Below are positions 6,976 through 35,687 of a DNA stretch of 42,057 nucleotides, in pieces (the stretch's first letter is position 1; every line of letters starts with the position of its first letter). The notes below the pieces were generated by a model. That model did not search any database. It saw nothing but the letters and a program-made list of their open reading frames with translations, and was not told the DNA's origin. Made by a program: the position numbers and the translations under genes. Origin of the DNA: Pseudomonadota bacterium. Lineage in GTDB: Bacteria > Pseudomonadota > Gammaproteobacteria > Xanthomonadales > Rhodanobacteraceae. Location of the stretch: positions 1 to 42,057 of the forward strand of contig JAKAWV010000025.1 in NCBI GenBank assembly GCA_021827205.1, given 5' to 3'.

Positions 6976-7069
6976 TTGTGGCGCAAGTGCAAGAGGCAAG
7001 TCTGGGCCGGGACGATGTGCTGCCCCGTGCCAATTCAATCATCCATCGCATAACCGAGGAGAATCGTTG

Positions 7070-7570
7070 ATGTCATTCGACATGCATATCAAGTTTGGAG
7101 CCGGCAAGCTCAAAATCGAGGGTTCATCCGCCCATTCCAAGCACAAGGGTGAAATTCCGATCCTGGCGTGGTCGTGGGGCGCCAGCAATAGCGGCAACCT
7201 GCATGGCGGCGCCGGTGCCAGCGGCGGCAAGGCCAACGTGCAGGACATATCAATCACCAAGTATATGGACGGCTGTTCCAATGCGCTGCTCAATGCCGTT
7301 TGTACCGGCGCGCGTATTGATACCGCCTGGCTGTATGTGACCAATGCCACCGGTGTGCAGACCGATTTCCTTACCCTCGAGTTGAGCGAAGGCATTTTGC
7401 TGACATCGTGGTCTACCGGTGGCAGCGGTGGCGAGGATCGCCTTACTGAGAACATCACGCTGCACTTCGGCAAGTTCAAGTTCTCGTTCCAGCCACAGGA
7501 CGACAAGGGCGCCGCAGATGGCGGCAAGAAGGAATTCACCTACGACATGCAGAAAGTCGAATCGACCTGA
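7070..7570 (+). CDS. hcp: T6SS tube protein Hcp (TssD)
   Basis: A 166-residue Hcp protein whose hexameric rings stack into the secreted inner tube and chaperone small effectors. It shows the usual MSFDMHIKF start, IPILAWSWG, the ISITKYMDGCSNALL stretch that matches the classic 'tKxxDxaSp' position, and C-terminal KEFTYDMQKV. ATG 7070 has GAGGAG at 7056-7061, 8 nt away; an in-frame TTG just before it is ignored. The glycine-rich loop around residues 42-54 (GNLHGGAGASGG) is a normal variable feature. It is flanked by gaps of 171 and 82 bp, so it may be transcribed on its own. Confidence 0.97.
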   Translation: MSFDMHIKFGAGKLKIEGSSAHSKHKGEIPILAWSWGASNSGNLHGGAGASGGKANVQDISITKYMDGCSNALLNAVCTGARIDTAWLYVTNATGVQTDFLTLELSEGILLTSWSTGGSGGEDRLTENITLHFGKFKFSFQPQDDKGAADGGKKEFTYDMQKVEST

Positions 7571-11841: not shown

Positions 11842-11946
11842 CGCATGTCAGTGCATCCACCATGGATCGATCACCACCACTTCATGCCGCCTGCCAAGGC
11901 GCGCGCGTAGTCTGATGGGCCACGCGGCCCGCGAGGATAGATGCAT

Positions 11947-14676
11947 ATGGCAGAGATCAGTCGCAGCGCCTTGTTCGGCAAGCTCAACAAGCTGGCCTAT
12001 CGAGGTATCGAAAGCGCCACCGTGTTCTGCAAGCTGCGGGGCAATCCTTACGTCGAGCTGGTGCACTGGATCCATCAGATCCTGCAATTGCAGGACTCGG
12101 ATCTGCACCGCATCGTCAAGCAGTTCAACCTCAATCCATCCAATCTCGCGCGCGATGTCACCGACGCACTGGATCGCCTGCCGCGCGGCTCGACGTCCAT
12201 CTCCGATCTGTCCAGCAATGTCGAGGAAGCGGTCGAGCGTGGCTGGGTGTTCGCCACGCTGATGTTTGGCGAGGCGCAGGTGCGCACCGGGTATCTGATC
12301 ATCGGCGTGCTGCGCACGCGCCACCTGCGCAACGCACTGGTCGGCATCTCGGCGGAATTCGACAAGATCAAACCCGAGGCACTGAGCGAGAAGTTCCGCG
12401 AGGTGGTTGAAGGTTCGCCGGAAGACAAGCAAAGTGCCTCCGATGGTTTCCATATGGGCGGCGCAACGCCCGGTGAGGCCAGCGGCGCCATGGGTCCGGC
12501 GCAGATGGGCAAGCAGGAGGCGCTGCGGCAATTCACCGTTGACCTCACCGAGCAGGCACGCAGCGGCAGGCTCGACCCCATCGTCGGGCGTGACGAGGAA
12601 ATCCGCCAAGTGGTGGACATCCTCATGCGCCGCCGCCAGAACAACCCGATGCTGGTCGGCGAGGCGGGGGTGGGCAAGACCGCCGTGGTCGAGGGTTTCG
12701 CCCTGCGCATCGTCGCGGGTGACGTGCCGCCCTCATTGAAGGACGTCGAGCTGCGCACGCTCGATGTTGGCCTGCTGCAAGCCGGCGCCAGCATGAAGGG
12801 TGAATTCGAAAACCGCCTGCGTCAGGTGATCGAGGAAGTGCAGTCCTCGCCCAAGCCCATCATCCTGTTCATCGATGAGGCGCACACCTTGGTCGGTGCC
12901 GGTGGCGCGGCCGGCACCGGCGATGCGGCCAACCTGCTCAAGCCCGCACTGGCACGCGGCAACCTGCGCACGGTCGGCGCCACCACCTGGGCCGAATACA
13001 AGAAGCACATTGAAAAAGACCCGGCGCTGACGCGCCGCTTCCAGACCGTGCAAGTAGACGAGCCCAGCGAGGAAAAGGGCATCCTGATGATGCGCGGCGT
13101 TGCCAGCGTGATGGAAAAACACCATCGCGTGCAGATTCTGGATGAGGCGTTGGAAGCCGCAGTCAAGCTCTCGCATCGCTACATTCCGGCGCGGCAGTTG
13201 CCGGACAAGGCGGTGAGCCTGCTCGACACGGCCTGCGCGCGCGTGGCCATCAGCCAGCATGCGGTGCCCGCGGAGGTGGATGACACGCGCAAACGCATTC
13301 AGGCGCTGGAAACGGAATTGGCGATCATCGGCCGTGAAAAAGTCGTGGGAGTTGACGTGGCCGAGCGTGAGGCCGCAGCCGGCGAAAAACTGGCTGTGCA
13401 AAAAGTGCGACTGGAAAAGCTTGAAATCGACTGGCAGGCCGAGAAGGCACTGGTCGAAAAAATCCTCGATTTGCGCGCGCATTTGCGTGGCGATGTGGCG
13501 ACAGTGGAGGGCACTGGCAGCAAGCTGGAGCAGACCGTCAAGGCCGAGGCTGAAGCGGTGGCGCCGCCGGCGCTCGACGAGGCCGAGCGTGCCACGGCGC
13601 TGACGGAATTGCAGGGTCTGCAAGCGCAACTGACCGAGTTGCAAGGCGAGACTCCGCTGATTCTGCCAACCGTGGATTACGTGGCGGTGGGTTCCGTGGT
13701 ATCCGACTGGACCGGCATTCCGGTCGGGCGCATGGTCAAGAGCGAGATCGAGACGGTGATGAACCTGGCCAGCCTGATGGGCGCGCGCGTCATCGGTCAG
13801 GACCATGCCATGGAGATGATCGCGCGGCGCATCCAGACCTCGCGTGCCGGGCTGGATAATCCCAGCAAACCCATTGGCGTGTTCATGCTGGCCGGTACCT
13901 CGGGCGTGGGCAAGACCGAGACCGCGCTGGCCCTGGCCGAAGCGTTGTACGGCGGCGAGCAGAATCTGATCACCATCAACATGAGCGAATTTCAGGAGGC
14001 GCACACCGTTTCCACGCTGAAGGGCGCGCCCCCAGGCTATGTCGGTTACGGCGAGGGCGGTGTACTCACCGAGGCGGTGCGTCGCAAGCCGTATTCGGTG
14101 GTGCTGCTGGACGAGGTAGAAAAAGCCCACCCCGATGTGCATGAAATTTTTTTCCAGGTATTCGACAAAGGCGTGATGGAAGATGGCGAGGGCCGCTCCA
14201 TCGATTTCAAGAACACACTGATCCTGCTCACCACCAACGCCGGTACCGAGCTGATCGCCGGCCTGTGCAAGGATCCGGATCTGATGCCCGATCCCGAAGG
14301 CATGGCCAAGGCCCTGCGCGAGCCGTTGCTGAAGATTTTTCCGCCAGCCCTGCTGGGACGTCTGGTGGCGATTCCGTACTACCCGCTCAGTCCCGAGATG
14401 CTGGGCAAGATCGTCAAGCTGCAGCTCAACCGCATCAAGAAGCGCATCGAAGGCCGCTACAAGATCCCGTTCGACTGCGGCGACGACGTGGTGAAGCTTG
14501 TGGTCGAGCGCTGCACCGAGAGCGAATCGGGTGGTCGCATGATCGACGCGATCCTGACCAACACCATGCTGCCAGACATCTCGCGCGAATTCCTCAACCG
14601 GATGATCGAGGGCAGGTCGATATCGGGCGTCAAGGTAAGCGTGCAGGACGGCGAGTTCGCCTACGCATTTGCCTGA
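11947..14676 (+). CDS. clpV: T6SS sheath-recycling AAA+ ATPase ClpV (TssH)
   Basis: A 909-residue Clp/Hsp100 ATPase that disassembles contracted sheath. An N-terminal Clp-N domain (about 1-160) is followed by AAA-1 with Walker A GEAGVGKT at 238-245 and Walker B ILFIDEAH near 306-313. A coiled-coil middle region follows (about 400-560). AAA-2 has Walker A GTSGVGKT at 650-657 and Walker [13 protein letters not shown]. The C-terminal D2-small domain ends near [10 protein letters not shown]. The frame starts at ATG 11941, but ATG 11947 ([14 protein letters not shown]) is preferred because GAGGA at 11933-11937 is 9 nt from it and only 3 nt from the first ATG. It closes the structural block before the unknown island. 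Confidence 0.97.
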
Positions 14677-14725: not shown

Positions 14726-14937
14726 ATGAACGGACATAGCAGCTGTTATCTGGTGATCAATGCCGTGCAACCACCTACTACCGCTACATCAAGAAATACT
14801 CCGACGCCCAGGAAAAGGCTTTCATTGTGGATGCCAAGCTGGCCGAGGTCGCTGGAAACGCCAACTTGGCCAATACGGTCCGGGTGGGGGCCATCCAGCG
14901 CAAGCAGGCGCAGCCTTCCAATGGCACGGAGATTTGA
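14726..14937 (+). pseudogene. small unknown gene, apparently frameshifted
   Basis: ATG 14726 has GGGAG about 9 nt upstream and reads MNGHSSCYLVINA before drifting into a Pro/Thr/Arg-rich, unlikely sequence. In the neighbouring frame, from about 14766, the DNA reads ATTYYRYIKKYSDAQEKAF and continues IVDAKLAEVAGNANLANTVR to a TGA at 14935-14937; this second part looks like real protein and has no start of its own (a TAG lies upstream in frame). One missing base near 14763-14770 would join them into about 69 residues. It follows clpV by 49 bp. I do not recognise the family; a small partner of the following genes is possible. Confidence 0.45.
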
Positions 14938-15055
14938 GGTCGATCCGGTCGGCGCGGGAGGGGCGGGTCGTTACCCTGCCTGCGCTTCCTGCCGGGCAGC
15001 GGATCGAGGGTGTGGTCAGGTACTGGGGCAGGAGGAGCAAGTCGCATGGGCCTGA
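14921..15055 (+). other. ambiguous coding remnant before the caspase-fold-like gene
   Basis: ATG 14921 overlaps the stop of the preceding small gene and reads MARRFEVDPVGAGGAG, and this frame's TGA (15053-15055) overlaps the next gene's start by 10 nt, a gene-like arrangement. The middle of the frame is unlikely, whereas another frame reads VVTLPALPAGQRIEGVVRYW between about 14968 and 15027. Indels in the G-runs near 14958-14966 and 15024-15027 would reconcile them. This may be a small damaged gene or leader sequence. Confidence 0.25.
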
Positions 15056-15759
15056 TCGTTCTCTGGGCGGAAGCCGATCACAAGAACCGCGCCGAACTGT
15101 TGGCCAAGACCTACGGCACCACGGCATACAACATCACTGACACCGAGCCGGTGAGCGTGCCCAACATGGACACGCTGACCTTCTGGGGACATGGCGATGC
15201 CTACAAGTTCTGCTCCATGGACGAGGACGAGTTCCTCGCCATGGTGCTGGCCTGGAAAAAGGCGAACAAGCAGATCTCCACGGTGGAGATGATCTCCTGC
15301 AATTTGCGCCACCGGATGGGCAACCAGCGCGAATCGTTCACGGCGAAAGTGATTGCGAAGATCAAGCGAAAGCACGCGGACATCCGGTTCAAGGCGTTGC
15401 CGGTTGCCAGGAGCGGGATGGGCGTGACCTGCGAGAACTCGATCCTCAAGTGGCAGCCATCGAGCCAGACATGGGCCTATTGCGCCACGCCTGGCAAGGA
15501 AGACCGCTACATGTGGGCGGTCTGCAAGATGCTGGAGGACCGCATGCCGCCGCGCGGTGACCGTGATGGTTATGTGCGCGCCTACAACCAGTTGCTCGGA
15601 GAGCAGTTCACGCTCAAGCACAAGTTCGGCAAGGACAAGCTCGGATCGATCGTGATGGAACCGTGTTCGCTGAGCAACATGCTGTGCGTGGCCAACAATG
15701 CCCATGTGTCGACGGGCACCATCGGCACGCTGCGTTGGTCCCTGGTGGACATCAAGTAG
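15046..15759 (+). CDS. unknown protein with clan-CD (caspase-fold) cysteine peptidase signature
   Basis: A 237-residue soluble protein without signal peptide or membrane helix. I do not recognise a named family. Two hydrophobic strands each end in a candidate catalytic residue: MDTLTFWGHG places His 49-Gly 50, and STVEMISCN places Cys 85. A strand followed by His-Gly, then 30-40 residues later a strand followed by (Ala/Ser)-Cys, is the signature of clan CD peptidases (caspases, gingipains, RTX self-cleavage domains). Between them lies an acidic helix (MDEDEFLAMVLAWKK). The C-terminal half has many Cys (129, 146, 160, 207, 214). ATG 15046 has GGAGGAG at 15031-15036 region and is preferred to an upstream in-frame GTG. 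Position between clpV and PAAR/vgrG suggests a secreted effector or its processing partner. The fold is inference; a non-enzymatic role is possible. Confidence 0.7.
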   Translation: MGLIVLWAEADHKNRAELLAKTYGTTAYNITDTEPVSVPNMDTLTFWGHGDAYKFCSMDEDEFLAMVLAWKKANKQISTVEMISCNLRHRMGNQRESFTAKVIAKIKRKHADIRFKALPVARSGMGVTCENSILKWQPSSQTWAYCATPGKEDRYMWAVCKMLEDRMPPRGDRDGYVRAYNQLLGEQFTLKHKFGKDKLGSIVMEPCSLSNMLCVANNAHVSTGTIGTLRWSLVDIK

Positions 15760-15885: not shown

Positions 15886-15909
15886 ACTGATATTTGACAG
15901 GTGACCGCT

Positions 15910-16959
15910 ATGCCTCTAGCAATAGACAAGCCACTACTCGCCTCGGACATCATGGAGGCCCGCGAATTGAAGGATGGAAAGATATTCCTGCTGAAAGGCA
16001 GGGATGGAAGCAGCCTCGTATTGAAGGCTGAGCCCAAGGTCACAGGCGACAAGATCAAGGCGACGGCGCCCGTGCTCAAGGCCATCGATGCCAGCGTGAA
16101 GATGAAGCCGCTCACGCAGTCGGAAGTCCTGCAACTCAAACAGTTCCTGCGGTCGTGGAGGATGTACGTCGAGTTCGTCAAGGCCGTCTGTCGCAGAGAT
16201 ACCAATCTGCCCATCTCGGAGGATGAGAAGAAGAGCATGGATGCACTGGAGGCCTGCATTAATAAGTACGGCCCCGTAAGTGCAAGTGGTCGATCAGACA
16301 TTGCCAAGATGAGTTACACGCAAATGTCCACGTTGAGCGTGGCCCTGAAGGTGGAGAACAAGCCATCCAATGACGCCTCATGGGACGAAGCACGTTCCAT
16401 CTTCGGCCAGTTCGTCAAGACGCTCAACAAGTCAGGGGGGCTGGAGAAGCTGGGCCAGATTGCCGCCGGAGATTTCTTCATCGGCAACCAGGATCGTTTC
16501 GTGACCGGGGGCGAAGCCGCGAAGATCAGGCTCCATGGTGAAAGGCACACACTCAAGGTCATCATCAATCTGGGCAACGTGATCATCGTCCAGGATGCCA
16601 AGGGCAAGTCGCGCCCCTCGATGCTCGACTACATGGATCCAAACACCGAATTCCTGGATTTGAAGCAGACACTGTCCACGATGGAGCGGTCGCAGGAATG
16701 GCCCATGCGGGTGCTGCTGGACAGGACAACCCGGCATGCATTTGCTGAAAATCTTGTCGATGATCTTGAGTACATCCTCCAACCCGAAAAAAGCCTGTTC
16801 GGCTTCAACAAGCTGGGTGGATCCCGCGCGTCAAATCGCGTCAACGATGGCATCAAGGCGGGCATCAAGGCCATGATCAAAAGTCTTGGCGCGCGTCAAG
16901 CCAAACTTTCGCCATTGATCCAGTCGTACTACGCCGAGCTGGCCAAGGCGAAGGTGTGA
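15910..16959 (+). CDS. unknown protein with kinase-fold (HipA/PI4K-like) signature
   Basis: A 349-residue soluble protein, not matched to a named family. The pattern of an atypical kinase is visible: a strand pair KIFLLKGRDGSSLVLKAE with candidate ATP-binding Lys 39; the phrase GDFFIGNQDRF (187-197), which resembles the catalytic loop D-x-x-x-G-N-x-D-R of HipA, PI3/4-kinase-like and FAM20-like kinases; and after a beta stretch, INLGNVIIVQD (219-229) where a metal-binding Asp/Asn would be expected. A basic helical C-terminus (NRVNDGIKAGIKAMIKS) follows. ATG 15910 is preferred to GTG 15901 because ACAGG lies about 8 nt upstream. Counted lines are 50-55 % GC against 63 % in tssM, suggesting separate acquisition. 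A translocated effector is one reading; toxin regulation is another. Confidence 0.65.
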   Translation: MPLAIDKPLLASDIMEARELKDGKIFLLKGRDGSSLVLKAEPKVTGDKIKATAPVLKAIDASVKMKPLTQSEVLQLKQFLRSWRMYVEFVKAVCRRDTNLPISEDEKKSMDALEACINKYGPVSASGRSDIAKMSYTQMSTLSVALKVENKPSNDASWDEARSIFGQFVKTLNKSGGLEKLGQIAAGDFFIGNQDRFVTGGEAAKIRLHGERHTLKVIINLGNVIIVQDAKGKSRPSMLDYMDPNTEFLDLKQTLSTMERSQEWPMRVLLDRTTRHAFAENLVDDLEYILQPEKSLFGFNKLGGSRASNRVNDGIKAGIKAMIKSLGARQAKLSPLIQSYYAELAKAKV

Positions 16960-17238: not shown

Positions 17239-17413
17239 AGCTGTTGCGCGGCTCATTCGCAACGGGGCTTTCGATGGCGAGATGTACACCCAATTGTCGC
17301 CACAGGACGCCGCCATCCTCGACGGGCTCGAAAACGATCTGCATATCGAAGCCGGACATTGCATCAATTTTTTGAGGAGTGTCAGTCATGCAACCCGCCG
17401 CTCGCCTCACTGA
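17189..17413 (+). CDS. small unknown protein overlapping the PAAR gene
   Basis: A 74-residue frame, bounded upstream by an in-frame TGA, reading MSIPYLANAGMSAQGAEAVA, then FDGEMYTQLSPQDAAILDGL and a C-terminal HCINFLRSVS. It looks like a small helical protein. It ends 26 nt inside the PAAR gene, whose ribosome binding site lies within it, so translation may be coupled. No strong start signal is seen for ATG 17189, leaving open that it is the C-terminal half of the preceding frame. Confidence 0.45.
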   Translation: MSIPYLANAGMSAQGAEAVARLIRNGAFDGEMYTQLSPQDAAILDGLENDLHIEAGHCINFLRSVSHATRRSPH

Positions 17414-17675
17414 TCTGCATGTCTGTCCGATGGTCACCGTGCTGGTGCCGCACGTTGGCGGCCCCATTTCTGCGCCCGGTGCACCGACGGTGTTGATCGG
17501 TGGTCTGCCGGCAGCGCGCATCGGCGACATGGCGGTTTGCGTGGGGCCACCAGACAGCATCGTGATGGGCTCGCCTACCGTGCTGATCGGCGGCTTGCCG
17601 GCGGCGCGGATGGGCGACAGTACCGCACACGGCGGAACAATCGTGCTCGGTTGCTTCACCGTGATGATCGGCTGA
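17388..17675 (+). CDS. PAAR-domain T6SS spike-tip protein
   Basis: A 95-residue stand-alone PAAR protein. PAAR proteins sharpen the VgrG spike and attach effectors to it. The family pattern is clear: PAARLTDLHVCP at the start, GGPISAPGAPTVLIGGLPAARIGD, a second SPTVLIGGLPAARMGD and the C-terminal AHGGTIVLGCFTVMIG. Metal-binding His/Cys positions (HVCP, the Cys of MAVCVGP, THGG-like AHGG, GC) are present. ATG 17388 has GAGGAG at 17374-17379. There is no extension, so any effector must be a separate protein. It follows the unknown island and precedes the TPR-methyltransferase gene by 16 bp. Confidence 0.95.
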   Translation: MQPAARLTDLHVCPMVTVLVPHVGGPISAPGAPTVLIGGLPAARIGDMAVCVGPPDSIVMGSPTVLIGGLPAARMGDSTAHGGTIVLGCFTVMIG

Positions 17676-17691: not shown

Positions 17692-19062
17692 ATGCCTCGA
17701 TCACTGACCACCACGCACCCGCGCAAACAGCCGGCACGCCAGCCGCAAGCGGCGTTCGCGACGCTGTTGCAAGAAGCCATCGCCAGCCATCAAGCGGGTG
17801 ATCTTGATGGCGCCGAGCGGCTGTATGGCGAGGTGCTGCAATTGCAGGTGGCACAGCCGGACGCCCTGCATTTTCTCGGCGTGCTGCATCATCAGCGCGG
17901 GCGCAGCGAGGCGGGCGTCGAGCTGATTCGCAGCGCAATCAAGATCACTCCGCGCCATCCGGATGCGCACAACAACCTCGGCAACATCCACAAGGAATGC
18001 GGGCGTTTGCGCGAAGCCGAGGCTTGTTATCGGCGTGCGCTCGAATGTGGCCCGACGCACCACAATGCCCTGAGCAATCTTGCGGTGGTGCTGGAGGCGC
18101 AGGAGCGGCCCGAGGAGGCGTTCCAGGCCTACACCCGACTGCTGCGGCAGGCGCCGCAGTTCGCGCATGGGCATTACCTGCTGGGTCGTTTCCTGCGGCA
18201 GTTCGCGCAGAACGTCGGGCATATCGAGCAATCTGCGGAACACTTTCGCAAGGCTTGCCAACTGGATGGCAGTAATGTGCGCGCGCTGCAGGCGCTGGGT
18301 GAGTCGCTGTACCTGCTCGGGCGGCAGGACGAGGCGGTCGCGGTGTATCGGGACTGGCTGGCGCGCGAGCCGGACAATCCGGTACCGCGTCACATGCTGG
18401 CGGCGTGCGGTGGGTCGGCGGTTCCTGCGCGCGCCGACGACGACTACGTACGCGATGTGTTCGATGCATTCGCGGACAGTTTCGACGAGCAGTTGCTGAG
18501 GAATCTCGATTACCGCGCGCCACAGGTGCTCACCGAGGCTTTGAGCAGGTGCTTAGGCGCGCCGGCGGCGGCGCTGAATATACTTGATGCAGGTTGCGGG
18601 ACCGGCTTGTGCGCGCCGTTGATCCGCGCGCATGCACGGAGGCTGGTGGGCGTGGATCTTTCGGGCGGCATGGTGGAGAAGGCGCGCGCCCGTGGCGGTT
18701 ACGACGAACTGGTCGTCGCGGAACTCACTGCGTACCTGTGCGCGCAGCCAGCCACCTATGACGTGATTGTCTCTGCCGACACCCTGGTTTATTTTGGCGA
18801 GTTGCGGCCGGTGCTGTCGGCCGCGCATGCGGCGTTGCGGCCCGGTGGCCGAGTGGGTTTCACGCTGGAGGCGCTGGAAGGCGATGCGGAGTGCAGCGAG
18901 TTGTCGGCCAGCGGCCGCTATCGCCATACACGGGCCTGCGTACAGCGGGTGCTGGACGTGGCAGGCTTTCGCGAGGTGAATATCAGCGCCGACACGCTGC
19001 GCCGCGAGGCGGGCAGGATGGTGGCGGGTTGGGTTGTCGTGGCGTGCCGCGGAGTAATCTAG
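17692..19062 (+). CDS. TPR-repeat methyltransferase fusion
   Basis: A 456-residue protein with about five or six tetratricopeptide repeats in residues 22-235 (for example DLDGAERLYGEVLQLQ, HPDAHNNLGNIHKECGRLREAE), followed by a class I S-adenosylmethionine-dependent methyltransferase domain. SAM motif I is ILDAGCGTG at 297-305; the acidic end of strand 2 is seen in LVGVDLSGGMVEKA, and the post-motif is YDVIVSADTLVYFGEL. The substrate is unknown. It lies between the PAAR and vgrG genes and is probably co-transcribed with PAAR. TPR proteins can act as adaptors and methyltransferases can be modifiers or toxins, so either an effector-loading or effector role is possible. The 240 bp after it hold no gene that I can support. 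Confidence 0.88.
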   Translation: MPRSLTTTHPRKQPARQPQAAFATLLQEAIASHQAGDLDGAERLYGEVLQLQVAQPDALHFLGVLHHQRGRSEAGVELIRSAIKITPRHPDAHNNLGNIHKECGRLREAEACYRRALECGPTHHNALSNLAVVLEAQERPEEAFQAYTRLLRQAPQFAHGHYLLGRFLRQFAQNVGHIEQSAEHFRKACQLDGSNVRALQALGESLYLLGRQDEAVAVYRDWLAREPDNPVPRHMLAACGGSAVPARADDDYVRDVFDAFADSFDEQLLRNLDYRAPQVLTEALSRCLGAPAAALNILDAGCGTGLCAPLIRAHARRLVGVDLSGGMVEKARARGGYDELVVAELTAYLCAQPATYDVIVSADTLVYFGELRPVLSAAHAALRPGGRVGFTLEALEGDAECSELSASGRYRHTRACVQRVLDVAGFREVNISADTLRREAGRMVAGWVVVACRGVI

Positions 19063-19302: not shown

Positions 19303-21327
19303 ATGGCCTATGCGATCACCCTGACGACCGATCTTGGCGGCGACACGTTGCTGTTCCGACGCATGCACGCCCGCGAGCATCTGGGGCAGCTATTTTCCTA
19401 TCGCGTGGAGATGCTGAGCACGGACCAGGCAGTGGATCTGCGCAAGCTGCTAGGCACGCCGATGACGGTCAACCTGAAGCCCCCCGGGGGGGGAGAGCGC
19501 TACTTCAACGGCATTGTCGGTGCCGCCGAGCAGACCGGGTTCGAAACCGTCGGGAAGGTGCGCTATGCGACCTACGCCGTGACCCTGGTCCCCAAGCCCT
19601 GGCTACTGACGCGCAAGGTGGATTGCCGCATTTACACCGCACTGAGCGTGCCCGACATCGTCAAGCAAATCCTGGGTGAGTTCGGCTATGCCGATGTGGA
19701 TGTCAATCTCAGTGGCAACTACGCCGCCCGCGATTACTGCGTGCTGTACCGTGAGAGCTACTTCAACTTCATCAGCCGCTTGATGGAGCAGGAGGGCATT
19801 TACTACTTCTTCACGCATACCGCCGACAAGCACACCATGGTGCTGGCGGACGCCAGCAGTGCCCATGTGGCGGTCGCGCCATTCGCGACGATTCCTTACT
19901 GCCCGCCGACGCAGCGCGGCAGTCGCGAGGCAGCCAGCGTGAGCGCATGGACCACGGCGCGCTCGGTCAATGCGCTCAAGTGCGAGCTGACTGATTTTGA
20001 CCCGATGGCACCCACGGCCGCGCTGCTTGTCACCGCCTCGGTCGATAACGGGGTCGACTATCACAATCTCACCGAATTGACAGTGTTCGACTTCCCCGGC
20101 GACTACACCAGCGCGGAAAAATCCAGTACCGGCCAGCGATACGCGCAAGTGCGGACGCAAGCACTGAACGCGCAGCACCTGACCCATGCCGGCAGCACCG
20201 ATGCCTGGGGCTTGGCTACCGGCAACCTGTTCACCCTCAAGGATTTCCCGCTCCAGGAATTGAACCAGGAATATCTGGTGCTCGGCACACAGATCGATTT
20301 GGAGGGTGTCGAATATGCCTCCGGTGATGATGAGAAGACGCCGTTCGCCTGCACCTTCGAAGCGATCGCCAGCCAACAGCCCTACCGCAGCCTGCCGCTG
20401 GCGACAAAACCGATCATCGCGGGCCTGCAGACTGCCGTCGTCACTGGCAGCGACACCGACGAGGACATCGTGGTCGACAAGTACGGCCGCGTGCAGGTCA
20501 CGTTCCACTGGAACAAGCCGGACAAGCCGAACGCGCAGAGTTCGTGTCCGGTACGCGTGGCCTCATCGTGGGCGGGCAAAGCCTGGGGCGCGATCAACAT
20601 TCCGCGTGTCGGACAAGAGGTCGTGGTGAGCTTCCTGGAGGGTGATCCTGACCAGCCGTTGATCATCGGCAGTGTTTACAATGCCAACCACATGCCGCCG
20701 TACACGCTGCCGGATAACAAGACCCAGAGCGGTATCGTGAGTTGCAGCAATCCGAATGGCAACGCCAGCACATTCAACGCAATCCGCTTCGAGGACAAGA
20801 AAGGCAGCGAGGATCTCTACCTGCACGCGCAGAAAGACATGCACGAGGATGTAGTGAACGACCACGTCGTGACCATCGGGAATGACGAAACCAGCAGCAT
20901 CAAGAACGATCAGACCAGCGAGATCAAACACAACCGCAAGCACACCGTGGACAACGATGACACGCTGACCGTAAGCAACAATGGCAGCACGTCGATCGGC
21001 AAGGAGTTCAAGCTTGAGGCTGGCAGTCAGATCGAACTGGTGACCGGCGCATCCAGCATCACCATGAAGAGTTCGGGCGAGATCGAGATCAAGGGTGTCA
21101 ACATCAAGATCACCGGTGACATGTCGGTGAAGATCGATGGTCAGACCGAGGTCGGCATCAAGGCCGGGGCGACCATGGACATCGGTGCAGGCGCCAGCCT
21201 GAAGGCACATTCCGACGCCATGCTGGAGGTGGCCGGCGGCGCGATGACCACGGTCAAGGGGCCGATGCTGACGCTCAAGGGCGATGGCATGGCGCAGTTG
21301 TCCGGCGGCATCATCATGATCGGCTGA
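19303..21327 (+). CDS. vgrG: T6SS spike protein VgrG (TssI)
   Basis: A 674-residue VgrG, the trimeric spike that puncture the target cell and carries PAAR and effectors. The gp27-like N-terminus has FRRMHAREHLGQLFSYRVE and the phrase YRESYFNFISRLMEQEGIYYFF. The gp5-like OB domain shows DKYGRVQVTFHWNK, VASSWAGKAWGAINIPRVGQEV and LEGDPDQPLIIGSVYN. The C-terminal part is a repetitive beta-needle ending LSGGIIMIG, with no extra effector domain. Start ATG 19303 follows GGAG at 19290-19293. A C6/G8 homopolymer (19480-19493) lies in the coding sequence but the frame is intact. It is separated from the gene before by 240 bp, which may hold its own promoter. Confidence 0.97.
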   Translation: MAYAITLTTDLGGDTLLFRRMHAREHLGQLFSYRVEMLSTDQAVDLRKLLGTPMTVNLKPPGGGERYFNGIVGAAEQTGFETVGKVRYATYAVTLVPKPWLLTRKVDCRIYTALSVPDIVKQILGEFGYADVDVNLSGNYAARDYCVLYRESYFNFISRLMEQEGIYYFFTHTADKHTMVLADASSAHVAVAPFATIPYCPPTQRGSREAASVSAWTTARSVNALKCELTDFDPMAPTAALLVTASVDNGVDYHNLTELTVFDFPGDYTSAEKSSTGQRYAQVRTQALNAQHLTHAGSTDAWGLATGNLFTLKDFPLQELNQEYLVLGTQIDLEGVEYASGDDEKTPFACTFEAIASQQPYRSLPLATKPIIAGLQTAVVTGSDTDEDIVVDKYGRVQVTFHWNKPDKPNAQSSCPVRVASSWAGKAWGAINIPRVGQEVVVSFLEGDPDQPLIIGSVYNANHMPPYTLPDNKTQSGIVSCSNPNGNASTFNAIRFEDKKGSEDLYLHAQKDMHEDVVNDHVVTIGNDETSSIKNDQTSEIKHNRKHTVDNDDTLTVSNNGSTSIGKEFKLEAGSQIELVTGASSITMKSSGEIEIKGVNIKITGDMSVKIDGQTEVGIKAGATMDIGAGASLKAHSDAMLEVAGGAMTTVKGPMLTLKGDGMAQLSGGIIMIG

Positions 21328-31265: not shown

Positions 31266-31984
31266 AAACCCGCTATCGCTCGGCAGGGCGCACGGTCACC
31301 GGCAAGGTCCGCAAGCACAATGAGGACGCAATCCTGATGCGTGATGACGTCGGATTATGGGTGGTTGCCGACGGCATGGGGGGCCATTCGGCCGGTGATT
31401 ACGCCAGCGGCCTGCTCATCGAGCGTCTTGGCGCCGTGCGCCGCGATGGAGACGTATTCGACTTCATCGAGACGGTCGAGGATGCCGTGGTGCAGGTCAA
31501 CACCGACTTGCTGCGAACGGCGGCGGAACGTGGCGTCGACGTGATCGGCACGACCTTGGTGCTGTTGGTGCACAGTGCTGATTTCATGCTTTGTGGCTGG
31601 GTCGGTGACAGCCGCGGCTATTGCTACGAGGAAGGACGCTTGAGCCAGGTCACCGAAGATCATGTGCATGGCGGCATCAAGAGCGATATCACCCAGTTTG
31701 GAATGCAATCAGCGCAGCCAACGCCGGGTGCTGGCGTGCTGACTCGCGCCATCGGCGCTGAACGTGATTTGTTCATCGATTGGGTGGTTACCGGCAGTCG
31801 CCCGGGCATGCAGTTTTTGCTCTGTTCGGACGGCATCAACAAGGAAATGTCGGATGACGAGATCGATGCCGAGTTCCGCCGCCGGCTGCAACCGCAGGCG
31901 CTCGCTGATGAGCTGATTGATCTCGGTCTGCAGCGCGCAGCGCGCGACAATATTTCCGCCGTCATCGTGCAATTGCAGGATTGA
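31262..31984 (+). CDS. pppA: T6SS PP2C-type protein phosphatase PppA
   Basis: A 240-residue Ser/Thr phosphatase that removes the phosphate placed by PpkA and so switches the T6SS off. PP2C metal-binding motifs are intact: RKHNEDA (residues 18-23), VVADGMGG (34-41), WVGDSRGY, LLCSDGI and RDNISAVIV. No membrane helix is visible, so it acts in the cytoplasm. The start overlaps the tagF stop by the ATGA arrangement, implying coupled translation, and the gene lies 16 bp before ppkA. Confidence 0.96.
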   Translation: MKTRYRSAGRTVTGKVRKHNEDAILMRDDVGLWVVADGMGGHSAGDYASGLLIERLGAVRRDGDVFDFIETVEDAVVQVNTDLLRTAAERGVDVIGTTLVLLVHSADFMLCGWVGDSRGYCYEEGRLSQVTEDHVHGGIKSDITQFGMQSAQPTPGAGVLTRAIGAERDLFIDWVVTGSRPGMQFLLCSDGINKEMSDDEIDAEFRRRLQPQALADELIDLGLQRAARDNISAVIVQLQD

Positions 31985-32000
31985 TCGAGACCGTACCCAG

Positions 32001-35000
32001 ATGAAGTCCATCGTTGAACTGATTGTCGCCCTGCAGCAGGGAACACTGACGCTGTCGGCCGCAGCGGATGCCATCGCTGCGCGTGGCGCGTTGCCCGATG
32101 CTGAGCATCGCGCCGAGCTGACGCTGCTTGAGCAGGCAGGTCAGCAGGGGCAACTCGATGCGCCGACCGTGCGTGAGCTGTTGGCCAGACTCGTGGCTGC
32201 GCAGGTCGCAGCGGCCCCTGACGACAGCTTCGACGATGCCACCGTAGTCAAGCCGGTGATGGACGACGCGACCGTGGTGAAACCCGCGGCGCGGCCGCCG
32301 CCGCAGCCGCCGGTCGAGGCCACCGATGGCACGGTCGTGAAGCCCGTGCCACGGCCGCCACCGCCGGAGCAGGACGAGGTCACTATCGTCAAGCCATCCG
32401 CGGTGCGCGTACCAGATGGTACTGAGCGAACCACCGGGGTGACGGGCACTGCCGGAAAGACGGGCACCGGCACGGGTTCCAGCAGCATGGACATGGCCAG
32501 TTGGCGTCGCATCGCCAGTGCGGAGGGTGGGGAATACGCGACCGTCGGCATGTTGCTCAAGGGTCGCTTCCTGCTTGAGCGCGAAATCGGCCGTGGTGGC
32601 ATGGGCGTGGTGTTCCTGGCACGCGATGAGCGCAAGGTCGAAGCGCGCGATCGTGATCCCTATGTCGCCGTCAAAGTGCTGAACGATGATTTTCGTCGCC
32701 ATCCCGATTCGCTGATCGCGCTGCAACGCGAGGCACGGCGCTCGCAACTGCTGGCACACGACAACATCGTGCGTGTGTTCGATTTCGACAAGGATGGAAC
32801 CATCGTTTTCATGACGATGGAGTACATCGACGGTTCCGATCTGAAGACGCTGATCCGCGAACGCGCCTACAACGGCATGTCGCTGGCCGATGCGCGGCCG
32901 TTGATCGAAGGCATGGCGTGGGCACTCAAGCGCGCGCATGCCACGGGCGTGGTGCATTCTGATTTCAAGCCCGGCAACGTCATGGTCACGCGCGAGGGCG
33001 TGCCCAAGGTTTTCGACTTTGGCATCGCGCGCGCCGCGCAGCATGCGGGTAGCGATTCCGCGGGCGACAAGACTTTGTTCGATGCCGGCACCCTGGGCGC
33101 GCTGACGCCAGCCTACGCCAGCCTGGAGATGATCAAGGGGCAGGAGCCGGCAGCGTCCGACGACATTTACGCGCTGGGCTGCGTCATCTTCGAGCTGTTG
33201 ACCGGCAAACATCCCTTTGACAAGGCCAGTGCCGAGGTCGCCCAGCGCGAAGGGCGGCGACCGCCGGCGGTGCCGGGGCTCACGCGGCGTCAGTACAAGA
33301 CTTTGTGCGACAGCGTTGCCTTCACCCGCGAGCAGCGTTTGAAGAGCGCCGCCGAACTGATCGATGGTTTGCGCGAGGTTACGTGGTGCCAGCGTTATGG
33401 ACGGCCATTTGCCTATGGAGCGGGCGTGGTCGTGTTGCTGGCGTTGGGAGCCTGGGGCTTGAGCCGCTACCTGCACGACCAGCAAGTCGCGCGCGTTGTC
33501 GAGCGCTTCGCGCCAACCAATGCGCAGCACTACGCCAACGTCGGTCAGGCCATGACGGCGTTGAACGGTCTCAATCCACGGGACCGCACGCGCATCGTGC
33601 TCGAAGACGGTGAGATCATTCAGAGCTTTCTGCTCAACCGCATTCGCAGTCACTGGAATCCGTCCAGCGATCACTACGATTTTGCCGGCGCGGAAAGGGT
33701 ATTTCAGGCGCGCGACCAACTTAGGCTTTACTCCCCGGCGCTGGATCGCGAGCATCGCGTCATCGAACAGCAGCGCAACGATCTGCTCAACACCCTTGAT
33801 ACCCAGCTCATGGAGCGCATCAGTGTCGGAGCGATCTTCGCGAGTCAGCCGCACAATGTGATCGCTACCATGGCCAAGATCCGGGCCATGGATCCGACCA
33901 GTGCGCTGCTGAAAAATTCGCAGTTGGAACTCAAATACGATATTGCCATCGGTCAGTCGCTGGGGTCCGGCCAGATCGCGCAGGCGCAGCAGCAACTCAA
34001 GCTGGCGCGCAGCGTGTTTCCCGATTCACGGCGACTCGCGGTACGCGCCCAGCAACTGGCTGCGCTGAGCAGCAGTGAGCAGGTTGTCAGTGTCCCGACC
34101 ACATCGCGGTTCCAGACGGTGACGCAAGCGCAAACCGCTTTGGCGGGGCTGCTGGCCACGCCGGCCACCACGGCGGTTTGGCAGAGTCAGATCGCGGCTG
34201 CCATGGTGTTGTTGCAGAACAACCAGTCGCCCTCGACGCGCCATCTGGTGGATCGGCTCGGCGCCGCAATTGCCACGACCGTGAGCAAGCAGAACAACGC
34301 ATTGCATCTGCCGCAGGACATCGAGCTGATCAATTTCGGCCTGCGCTACGCGCCACATTCCGCGCCATTGTTGGCGCAGCGCGATCGTCTGGCGGCCTTG
34401 CAGCAGCAGCAGCAAACGCGGCTCGATCAGGAGGCGGCGACGGCAGAAATCGCCTCGCGCATCGAGTCCGTGCGCCGCGCGGCTGCGGCCAACGACACCG
34501 CCAAGGCCGAGCAATCACTGGCTCGGATTCGCGCGCTGCAACCGAGCAATCCTTTTCTTGTCACGGAAGGCCCGACGCTCGTCGCTGAGGCCTATATACG
34601 GATCGCGCAAGATGCATTCCGCGCCGGCAAGTATCAAAGCGCCCAACAGACGGTCGCGCAAGGCATTGCCGCGTTGGGGCCACGTTCGGATCTGGCCAAC
34701 GCGCGAGATTTGTATGCGCTGACCGCTGCACTGATCAGCGCGCATGGGCAACCGCTCGCCCCCGCCGATTATCAGCGTTTGAGCGCCCAGCTCGGGCGTA
34801 TCCGCAAGATCGATGCGAACGGGTTGAAGAACCTGGAAAGCGAACTCAAGAGCCGTGGGCAACTCGCGCAGGGCACGCTATCAGCATTGCTCGAATCGTT
34901 GCGGCCGTCGAGTCTGGTCAGTACCGCTGTGCAGCCTGCGACACCGACGCCAAGTCCGATCAGCACGGTCTCGAAGCCGGCTGCTGTCGTACCCCAGATT

Positions 35001-35687
35001 CTTCCCAGCACCTTGCCCCAACCAGTGACATCGGCCGCAGTCGCGTCCAGCCCCGATCCTTGTGCGCAAGCCGGGCTGGCCGGAAGCGGGCACGTGTGCT
35101 TCGATCGCTTGCACGATGGCCAGCGCGGCCCGCTGCTGGTGGTGATTCCTGGGATTGCCGGTGGCAAGCCGTATGCGCTCTCGCGTGCCGAAATCACCGT
35201 CAACGATTTCAATGCGTTCTGCAATGCAACGCACCAGTGCAAGCCAGTTGCGTTGGCTTATTCCTACGCCGGTCAGTTGCCCATCACCGATATCAATGTC
35301 AGCGCCGCCAAGGCCTACGCGCATTGGTTGAGCAGCGAGAGCGGCTATACCTACAGCCTGCCTACCGATGCCGAGTGGTTGCATGCGGCGCGGGCTGGAG
35401 TAGGCTGGAAACAGTCCCCTGACAGCAACTGCCTGCCGCCTTCTTCGGATGGAAACAATGGCGACGGCAGCCCGATCCCGGCGCTGGGTCGTCAGCCGAA
35501 TCCATGGGGTCTGGTGAACATGACCGGCAACGTCTGGGAGTGGGTGTTGCTCCCCAACGGTAAACTCGGGGTACGCGGGGGCAGCTACAACAGCTACTGG
35601 TCCGATTGCACGGTCAACGCCTTCCGCAGCGATTCGGGCGCACCCCAGCATGATGTCGGATTCCGCATTTTCAGGGCACTGAAATGA
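32001..35687 (+). CDS. ppkA: T6SS Ser/Thr kinase PpkA with FGE-like C-terminal domain
   Basis: A 1228-residue membrane kinase. An N-terminal 180-residue tail carries four Thr-Val/Ile-Val-Lys-Pro motifs. The kinase domain (about 188-460) has glycine loop GRGGMGVV (197-204), Lys 225 (VAVKV), catalytic HSD 319-321 and DFG 339-341. A membrane helix lies at 471-489. A long periplasmic helical region with TPR-like and Gln-rich coiled segments follows (about 490-1040). The C-terminal 180 residues are a formylglycine-generating-enzyme/sulfatase-modifying-factor domain (SRAEITVNDFNAFC, LPTDAEWLHAARAG, GNVWEWVL, GVRGGSYNS, VGFRIFRAL). In such fusions the FGE-like domain is thought to sense periplasmic signals. 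Start ATG 32001 lies 16 bp after pppA. The stop overlaps the next gene. Confidence 0.95.
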   Translation: MKSIVELIVALQQGTLTLSAAADAIAARGALPDAEHRAELTLLEQAGQQGQLDAPTVRELLARLVAAQVAAAPDDSFDDATVVKPVMDDATVVKPAARPPPQPPVEATDGTVVKPVPRPPPPEQDEVTIVKPSAVRVPDGTERTTGVTGTAGKTGTGTGSSSMDMASWRRIASAEGGEYATVGMLLKGRFLLEREIGRGGMGVVFLARDERKVEARDRDPYVAVKVLNDDFRRHPDSLIALQREARRSQLLAHDNIVRVFDFDKDGTIVFMTMEYIDGSDLKTLIRERAYNGMSLADARPLIEGMAWALKRAHATGVVHSDFKPGNVMVTREGVPKVFDFGIARAAQHAGSDSAGDKTLFDAGTLGALTPAYASLEMIKGQEPAASDDIYALGCVIFELLTGKHPFDKASAEVAQREGRRPPAVPGLTRRQYKTLCDSVAFTREQRLKSAAELIDGLREVTWCQRYGRPFAYGAGVVVLLALGAWGLSRYLHDQQVARVVERFAPTNAQHYANVGQAMTALNGLNPRDRTRIVLEDGEIIQSFLLNRIRSHWNPSSDHYDFAGAERVFQARDQLRLYSPALDREHRVIEQQRNDLLNTLDTQLMERISVGAIFASQPHNVIATMAKIRAMDPTSALLKNSQLELKYDIAIGQSLGSGQIAQAQQQLKLARSVFPDSRRLAVRAQQLAALSSSEQVVSVPTTSRFQTVTQAQTALAGLLATPATTAVWQSQIAAAMVLLQNNQSPSTRHLVDRLGAAIATTVSKQNNALHLPQDIELINFGLRYAPHSAPLLAQRDRLAALQQQQQTRLDQEAATAEIASRIESVRRAAAANDTAKAEQSLARIRALQPSNPFLVTEGPTLVAEAYIRIAQDAFRAGKYQSAQQTVAQGIAALGPRSDLANARDLYALTAALISAHGQPLAPADYQRLSAQLGRIRKIDANGLKNLESELKSRGQLAQGTLSALLESLRPSSLVSTAVQPATPTPSPISTVSKPAAVVPQILPSTLPQPVTSAAVASSPDPCAQAGLAGSGHVCFDRLHDGQRGPLLVVIPGIAGGKPYALSRAEITVNDFNAFCNATHQCKPVALAYSYAGQLPITDINVSAAKAYAHWLSSESGYTYSLPTDAEWLHAARAGVGWKQSPDSNCLPPSSDGNNGDGSPIPALGRQPNPWGLVNMTGNVWEWVLLPNGKLGVRGGSYNSYWSDCTVNAFRSDSGAPQHDVGFRIFRALK
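32232..32396 (+). repeat. four phosphosite-like repeats in the PpkA tail
   Basis: Four copies of a short motif occur in residues 78-132: DDATVVKP, DDATVVKP, TDGTVVKP and DEVTIVKP, separated by Pro-rich spacers (candidate Thr 81, 91, 111 and 128). The first two are identical in protein but differ in codons (gtagtcaag against gtggtgaaa), so they are not recent duplications. The TssL tail carries the matching DATIVRP. Confidence 0.85.

Follow-up and report, generated by a model that had tools for sequence, protein, structure and literature searches.

The 42,057-nucleotide contig JAKAWV010000025.1 of a bacterium of the Rhodanobacteraceae (GCA_021827205.1), referred to here as the window, carries a type VI secretion system (T6SS) cluster that contains a gene for a putative cysteine peptidase. 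An initial annotation had placed this gene between clpV and the PAAR and vgrG genes, as profile matches on the flanking genes also do, and had described a 237-residue product with two motifs 36 residues apart. Coordinates and translation agree: TFWGHG places His49-Gly50, VEMISC places Ser84-Cys85, and His49 and Cys85 are spaced by 36 residues. The gene and the parts of it discussed below are as follows.

15046..15759, plus strand, gene for a C80-like (clan CD) putative cysteine peptidase, 237 aa and stop codon
15166..15195, plus strand, residues 41-50, predicted strand with putative catalytic His49 (codon 15190-15192) and Gly50
15280..15300, plus strand, residues 79-85, predicted strand with putative catalytic Cys85 (codon 15298-15300)
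15436..15486, plus strand, residues 131-147, predicted hairpin in which S132, I133, L134, T142, W143, and Y145 are invariant

The ATG at 15046 lies downstream of an AGGAGG sequence and agrees with the starts of homologues, and was favored on both grounds over a longer start, GTG at 15010, which was set aside. The open reading frame (ORF) looks like a real gene, because homologues exist at 96–35% identity and because comparison with the copy at locus L001 gives a nonsynonymous rate (dN) of 0.018 against a synonymous rate (dS) of 0.126, codon changes falling mostly at synonymous sites. The location of the gene in an island of lower GC content, another point of the initial annotation, holds in direction (59.7% for the gene and 62.5% for the window), but the effect is mild, the gene standing at the 13th percentile of 714-bp windows. 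The interval from clpV to the PAAR gene has a GC content of 57.6%.

Predicted Fold and Catalytic Dyad

Structure prediction followed by a fold search bore out the proposal of a caspase-type, clan CD fold, with moderate confidence. The predicted fold of the protein was best matched by domains of the clan CD family C80; in two predictions, VIA ranks 1–26 and 1–13 were all C80. The two strands said to end at the dyad residues were predicted at residues 41–48 and 79–84, with His49 and then Cys85 at their ends, the dyad order of C80-type peptidases. Homologues, in which loss of either residue would have spoken against the assignment, retain both: His49 and Cys85 are invariant in all six rows of an alignment (A1) of the window protein, P0001, with five homologues of 96, 62, 57, 56, and 35% identity, two pairs being 92–96% identical so that four lineages are represented. 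Ser84 is replaced by Thr in one row. Further invariant positions are D42-T43-L44, F46-W47-G48, G50, F55-C56, T79-V80-E81, I83, N86, and R88-H89. Between P0001 and the most divergent homologue, P0005, 20 of 27 residues are identical in the dyad blocks (41–56 and 79–89) and 70 of 202 aligned residues overall (hypergeometric p = 8e-6, for blocks picked after the alignment had been seen). As judged from this alignment, conservation of both motifs exceeds chance. The protein is therefore described here as a stand-alone C80-like putative cysteine peptidase, on a fold prediction of moderate confidence.

The C80-like fold could also be used without peptidase activity; Ibe, a relative of the Vibrio parahaemolyticus effector VPA1380, has its His replaced by Asp (PMC4123922), and the rarity and changing neighbors of the present family would suit an accessory role, such as that of an adaptor or chaperone in cargo loading. 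With the dyad residues invariant in every row and the dyad blocks more conserved than the rest of the protein, loss of peptidase activity is highly improbable. The predicted hairpin at residues 131–147, with its invariant W143, could correspond to the beta-flap of C80 domains, which comes after the core and contains a Trp required for induction.

Other library searches added little. PADLOC and PHROGs scans of the protease gave nothing usable, and the best profile rows, phrog_16955 (E 0.03), Mcl1_mid (0.05), and HlyD_D23 (0.065), were at chance level and were discarded. The sole match of P0001 in a PDB sequence search, Kelch-like protein 17 (E 0.84), was not usable either; in a PDB profile search, a designed propeller (0.0041) and Kelch-like protein 17 (0.0085) touched residues 116–147 only and were rejected as hairpin matches, and BEM3 (0.53) and a nanobody (1.3) were of no help. 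A library of viral structures gave one match at E < 0.001, A0A8S5MXG5 (E 7.4e-4).

Distribution of the Family

A scan of genome contigs yielded three loci with the gene out of 11 pattern-matching stretches, namely L001 (96% identity), L002 of Variovorax soli (62%), and L003 of Frateuria (56%); the genome of the window itself holds a single copy. In overlapping genome samples, all of which except that of the genus include the window's own genome, the gene was found in 3 of 398 genomes of the order (single-sequence search), 3 of 147 of the family (profile search), 2 of 6 of one genus, 2 of 369 of the class (one of them a weak match over 45 positions within a 597-aa protein), and 1 of 398 of the phylum, which is the window's own. 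Plasmid and phage searches returned no relative, and none of the 23 pattern-matching stretches on viral contigs encodes one. The family is rare and patchy in the genomes sampled. A 597-aa protein of genome G437 (L007:1150-2943) has a GHG...SCN block resembling the dyad blocks of the family; it aligns over that block alone (29% identity, 48 columns, hhalign probability 83), and by this resemblance may be a clan CD protein of larger size.

The T6SS Cluster and Its Variable Interval

The surrounding features that bear on the gene are listed here.

7067..7570, plus strand, hcp (PF05638), candidate carrier of cargo
11941..14676, plus strand, clpV/tssH (TIGR03345, 1259 bits)
14726..14937, plus strand, small gene, 70 aa long at L001; in the window its reading frame is disrupted close to the start
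15901..16959, plus strand, gene for P0007, a 352-aa kinase-like protein without a usable Pfam or NCBIfam match, second cargo-type gene
17388..17675, plus strand, gene for a PAAR protein (PF05488)
17692..19062, plus strand, gene for a tetratricopeptide repeat (TPR) and methyltransferase protein, between the PAAR gene and vgrG
19303..21327, plus strand, vgrG/tssI (TIGR03361)

The cluster runs through tssB, tssC, hcp, a TagJ/ImpE gene, tssF, tssG, and clpV to the interval with the protease gene, and continues with genes for the PAAR and TPR-methyltransferase proteins, vgrG, a DUF6931 gene, FHA, tssK, tssL, tssM, tagF, a PP2C phosphatase, and a kinase. The Ser/Thr kinase gene (31917-35687) encodes an FGE-sulfatase-like C-terminal domain, and the small gene at 14726-14937 is intact in L001 and has matches in L018 and L032. 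As a whole the cluster resembles the group 3 T6SSs of Xanthomonadales, which have a variable insertion of 2.2–15.6 kb (PMC6653060); the only characterized one of that group, the T6SS of X. citri, confers resistance to predation by Dictyostelium (PMC6653060).

Gene content of the corresponding interval was compared in 22 clusters from the same family with ClpV proteins 87–91% identical; 25 such clusters were listed, the other three (the window, G184, and G762) holding the protease gene. None of the 22 matches the protease gene (tblastn, E up to 1e-4), nor does any of the full set of 29 loci downstream of clpV (L015–L043) to which the 22 belong. The intervals are closed by a PAAR or TPR-methyltransferase marker in 20 of the 22 cases, none having been found in L034, at a contig end, or in L036; matches to the PAAR query, whose translation was shifted by one base, served as position markers only. 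The TPR and S-adenosylmethionine-methyltransferase gene itself was matched in Variovorax and in the majority of the 22 relatives, 3′ of clpV. Interval loci gave 111 candidate frames, 103 of them from the 22 clusters and many not real genes, and six of the eight chosen for Pfam had a match: two Aspzincin M35, two deaminase family, one Lipase_3, and one DUF5636. Since interval contents differ among the clusters and include M35, deaminase, and lipase proteins, the interval resembles a site for cargo genes, with the protease gene among its optional occupants. Five of the six family members are encoded in such a T6SS cargo region. A protein of 337–347 aa recurs in the intervals (L010:6115-7155, with tblastn matches in L011 and several of L015–L043); the L010 copy has no Pfam match.

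The same comparison bears on whether the protease cuts a neighboring cargo effector or a part of the T6SS, before or after delivery. C80 domains of large toxins do process themselves (PMC2900308), and the gene adjoins cargo genes in the window, L003, and L005, the 3′ neighbors in L003 and L005 encoding Aspzincin M35 proteins (Pfam). Yet the adjoining cargo varies by lineage and is absent in Variovorax, where no gene intervenes before the TPR-methyltransferase gene, one homologue is solitary and outside any T6SS locus, and the 22 close-relative clusters lack the protease although 20 retain a flanking marker. Such a processing function, which the initial annotation had raised in the form of a protease that activates a neighbor, fits this distribution poorly and is distinctly unlikely.

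Neighboring Genes and Immunity

At the Variovorax locus L002, the protease gene (1199-1942) lies between clpV, whose stop is at 1176, and the TPR-methyltransferase gene, which starts at 1948; these gaps leave no room for an immunity gene. The solo P0005 gene is flanked by a symporter gene and a PPK2-like gene, as named from their translations, with no ORF of at least 80 aa confined to the adjoining gaps; a different contig of that genome encodes a ClpV that exceeds the family cut-off. At L001, L003, and L005 and in the window, no neighbor was recognized as an immunity gene, though a neighboring gene could in principle be one.

The kinase-like P0007 was considered as a possible partner. K42, D191, N196, D198, R199, N223, G225, N226, and D243 are invariant in all six rows of an alignment of P0007 with five relatives, down to 22% identity, and we take these residues to be a putative PI3/4-kinase- or HipA-like catalytic set; libraries including Pfam, NCBIfam, PADLOC, and PHROGs gave no usable match. 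Of 250 genomes sampled from the order, 5 encode P0007 relatives, the window's own included; the other four carriers were searched and three of them lack the protease, so P0007 is no fixed partner of it. The relatives in G035, G122, G132, and G200 lie outside recognizable T6SS genes. In genome G132, of another family, the protease and the kinase-like gene each have distant relatives (L048 and L012), on separate contigs.

An antibacterial protease effector, acting on bacterial proteins in the manner of Cpe1 with an immunity gene unrecognized or elsewhere, is nevertheless conceivable. Cpe1 is a papain-like cysteine-protease T6SS toxin directed against bacteria (PMC12136450), the deaminase and lipase proteins of the interval could be antibacterial, and a neighboring gene could in principle provide immunity in four of the loci. 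The crowded Variovorax locus, the empty gaps around the solo copy, and the inconstancy of the downstream neighbor, P0007 included, make this explanation unlikely.

Possible Activation by Inositol Hexakisphosphate

Inositol hexakisphosphate (InsP6) is the safety catch of known C80 effectors. The invariant K148, Y150, and R191 of VPA1380 map to InsP6-binding positions (PMC4123922); they lie six and four residues before the His and four before the Cys, and correspond in the window family to T43, T45 (Val in one row), and E81, when equivalences are taken from offsets to the dyad within the same strands, on the assumption that these contain no gap. These substitutions argue against the same pocket as in the known effectors, though not decisively, because K116, K109, R88, and the N-terminal H12, K13, and R15 are invariant and the flap side lies outside the comparison; R230 is a further basic residue invariant in the six rows. 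C80-type gating of the window protein by InsP6 is possible. Statements on InsP6 in PMC11696984 concern YopJ-like proteins and were not used.

A more specific proposal is that the proteins form a new sequence family of C80-type proteases injected by T6SSs and aimed at protist predators, kept inactive in the producer by their need for a recipient factor other than InsP6, not by an immunity protein. A different factor is invoked since the InsP6-linked strand positions are replaced, with invariant Glu81 where VPA1380 has Arg. This proposal is doubtful; if true, it would be a new mode of activation for the TcdB-like protease fold.

Proposed Role and Relation to Known Effectors

We consider it fairly probable that the protein is a T6SS cargo effector that cleaves recipient proteins. 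It would have a caspase-type alpha/beta core with the His49/Cys85 dyad at the ends of neighboring strands, would be carried by the T6SS, probably on Hcp or VgrG, and after injection would cleave at least one recipient protein by means of that dyad, the recipient being most likely eukaryotic, for example a predatory protist. Computation supports the gene, its conservation, the predicted fold, the position, and, for one lineage, a spacing too tight for an immunity gene, whereas proteolysis, secretion, and the kind of target are inferred. A eukaryotic target is favored by that lack of room, by the group-3-like setting, and by the precedent of Tce2 (PA2372), which together with Tce1 (PA0256) is an effector of the H3-T6SS of Pseudomonas aeruginosa (PMC13323088). 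Tce2 impaired growth of yeast, an effect relieved by a Cys-to-Ser change, did not markedly affect E. coli, and has no obvious immunity gene nearby (PMC13323088).

Several points weigh against this reading. Mean predicted local distance difference test (pLDDT) values were 71.7 and 61.4 in the two predictions, much of the C-terminal half being weak, and the remaining four models of each scored 54.9–58.6. Foldseek taken by itself was weak (best E 1.5e-3 and 1.4e-2; template modeling scores, normalized to query length, 0.39 and 0.35), P0005 exceeded unrelated folds by small Z margins, and the same six sequences, two pairs of them 92–96% identical, lie behind both predictions. No C80 profile matched, so the protein is not placed as a sequence member of the C80 profile family; nor was any peptidase family found for P0001 and four homologues in Pfam (E up to 1) or for P0001 in NCBIfam. 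Pfam shows no delivery domain in the protease, no search aimed at MIX having been made, and P0005 is encoded outside any T6SS locus. Of the two Pseudomonas effectors only Tce2 was toxic in yeast, Tce1 having no effect there (PMC13323088).

T6SS effectors of this fold, which the initial annotation had thought new, are in fact on record in Tce1 and Tce2 (2026; PMC13323088) and in the MIX V cluster 55 effectors of Vibrio campbellii, which have a predicted RtxA/TcdB-like protease domain (2018; PMC6267618). Tce1 and Tce2 differ in their His-Cys spacing (54 and 50 residues, against 36), and the window gene lies inside a structural T6SS cluster and, unlike Tce1, encodes no extra N-terminal domain; PDB sequence searches gave no Tce match, the presence of 9qpe in the searched copy being unchecked. 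A MIX domain is present at the N terminus of the MIX V cluster 55 proteins (PMC6267618), whereas the window protein starts directly with the core. OspB of Shigella and VPA1380, of 288 and 295 aa, are likewise stand-alone C80-type His-Cys protease effectors and act in eukaryotic cells, but are delivered by type III secretion systems and depend on InsP6 (PMC9239218; PMC4123922). The cysteine protease domains of MARTX and large clostridial toxins (MEROPS C80) are the best fold matches and share the dyad order (PMC2900308; PMC11296635), yet they are self-cutting, InsP6-gated parts of giant toxins, whereas the window protein is a free-standing 237 aa. Tox-Caspase domains of polymorphic toxins are also clan CD peptidases, acting as toxins or releasing peptidases, but are internal or C-terminal and are delivered by type VII secretion, PVC, TcdB/TcaC, or type II secretion (PMC3482391).

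A literature search, covering listings and selected passages, found no mention of the window protease family, which may be in print elsewhere. The family adds to T6SS-linked C80-like protease effectors, an already known kind. As an unannotated family from environmental bacteria it joins the few T6SS effectors that share the protease fold of large toxins, and it suggests that this fold serves as a free-standing weapon beyond Pseudomonas and Vibrio.
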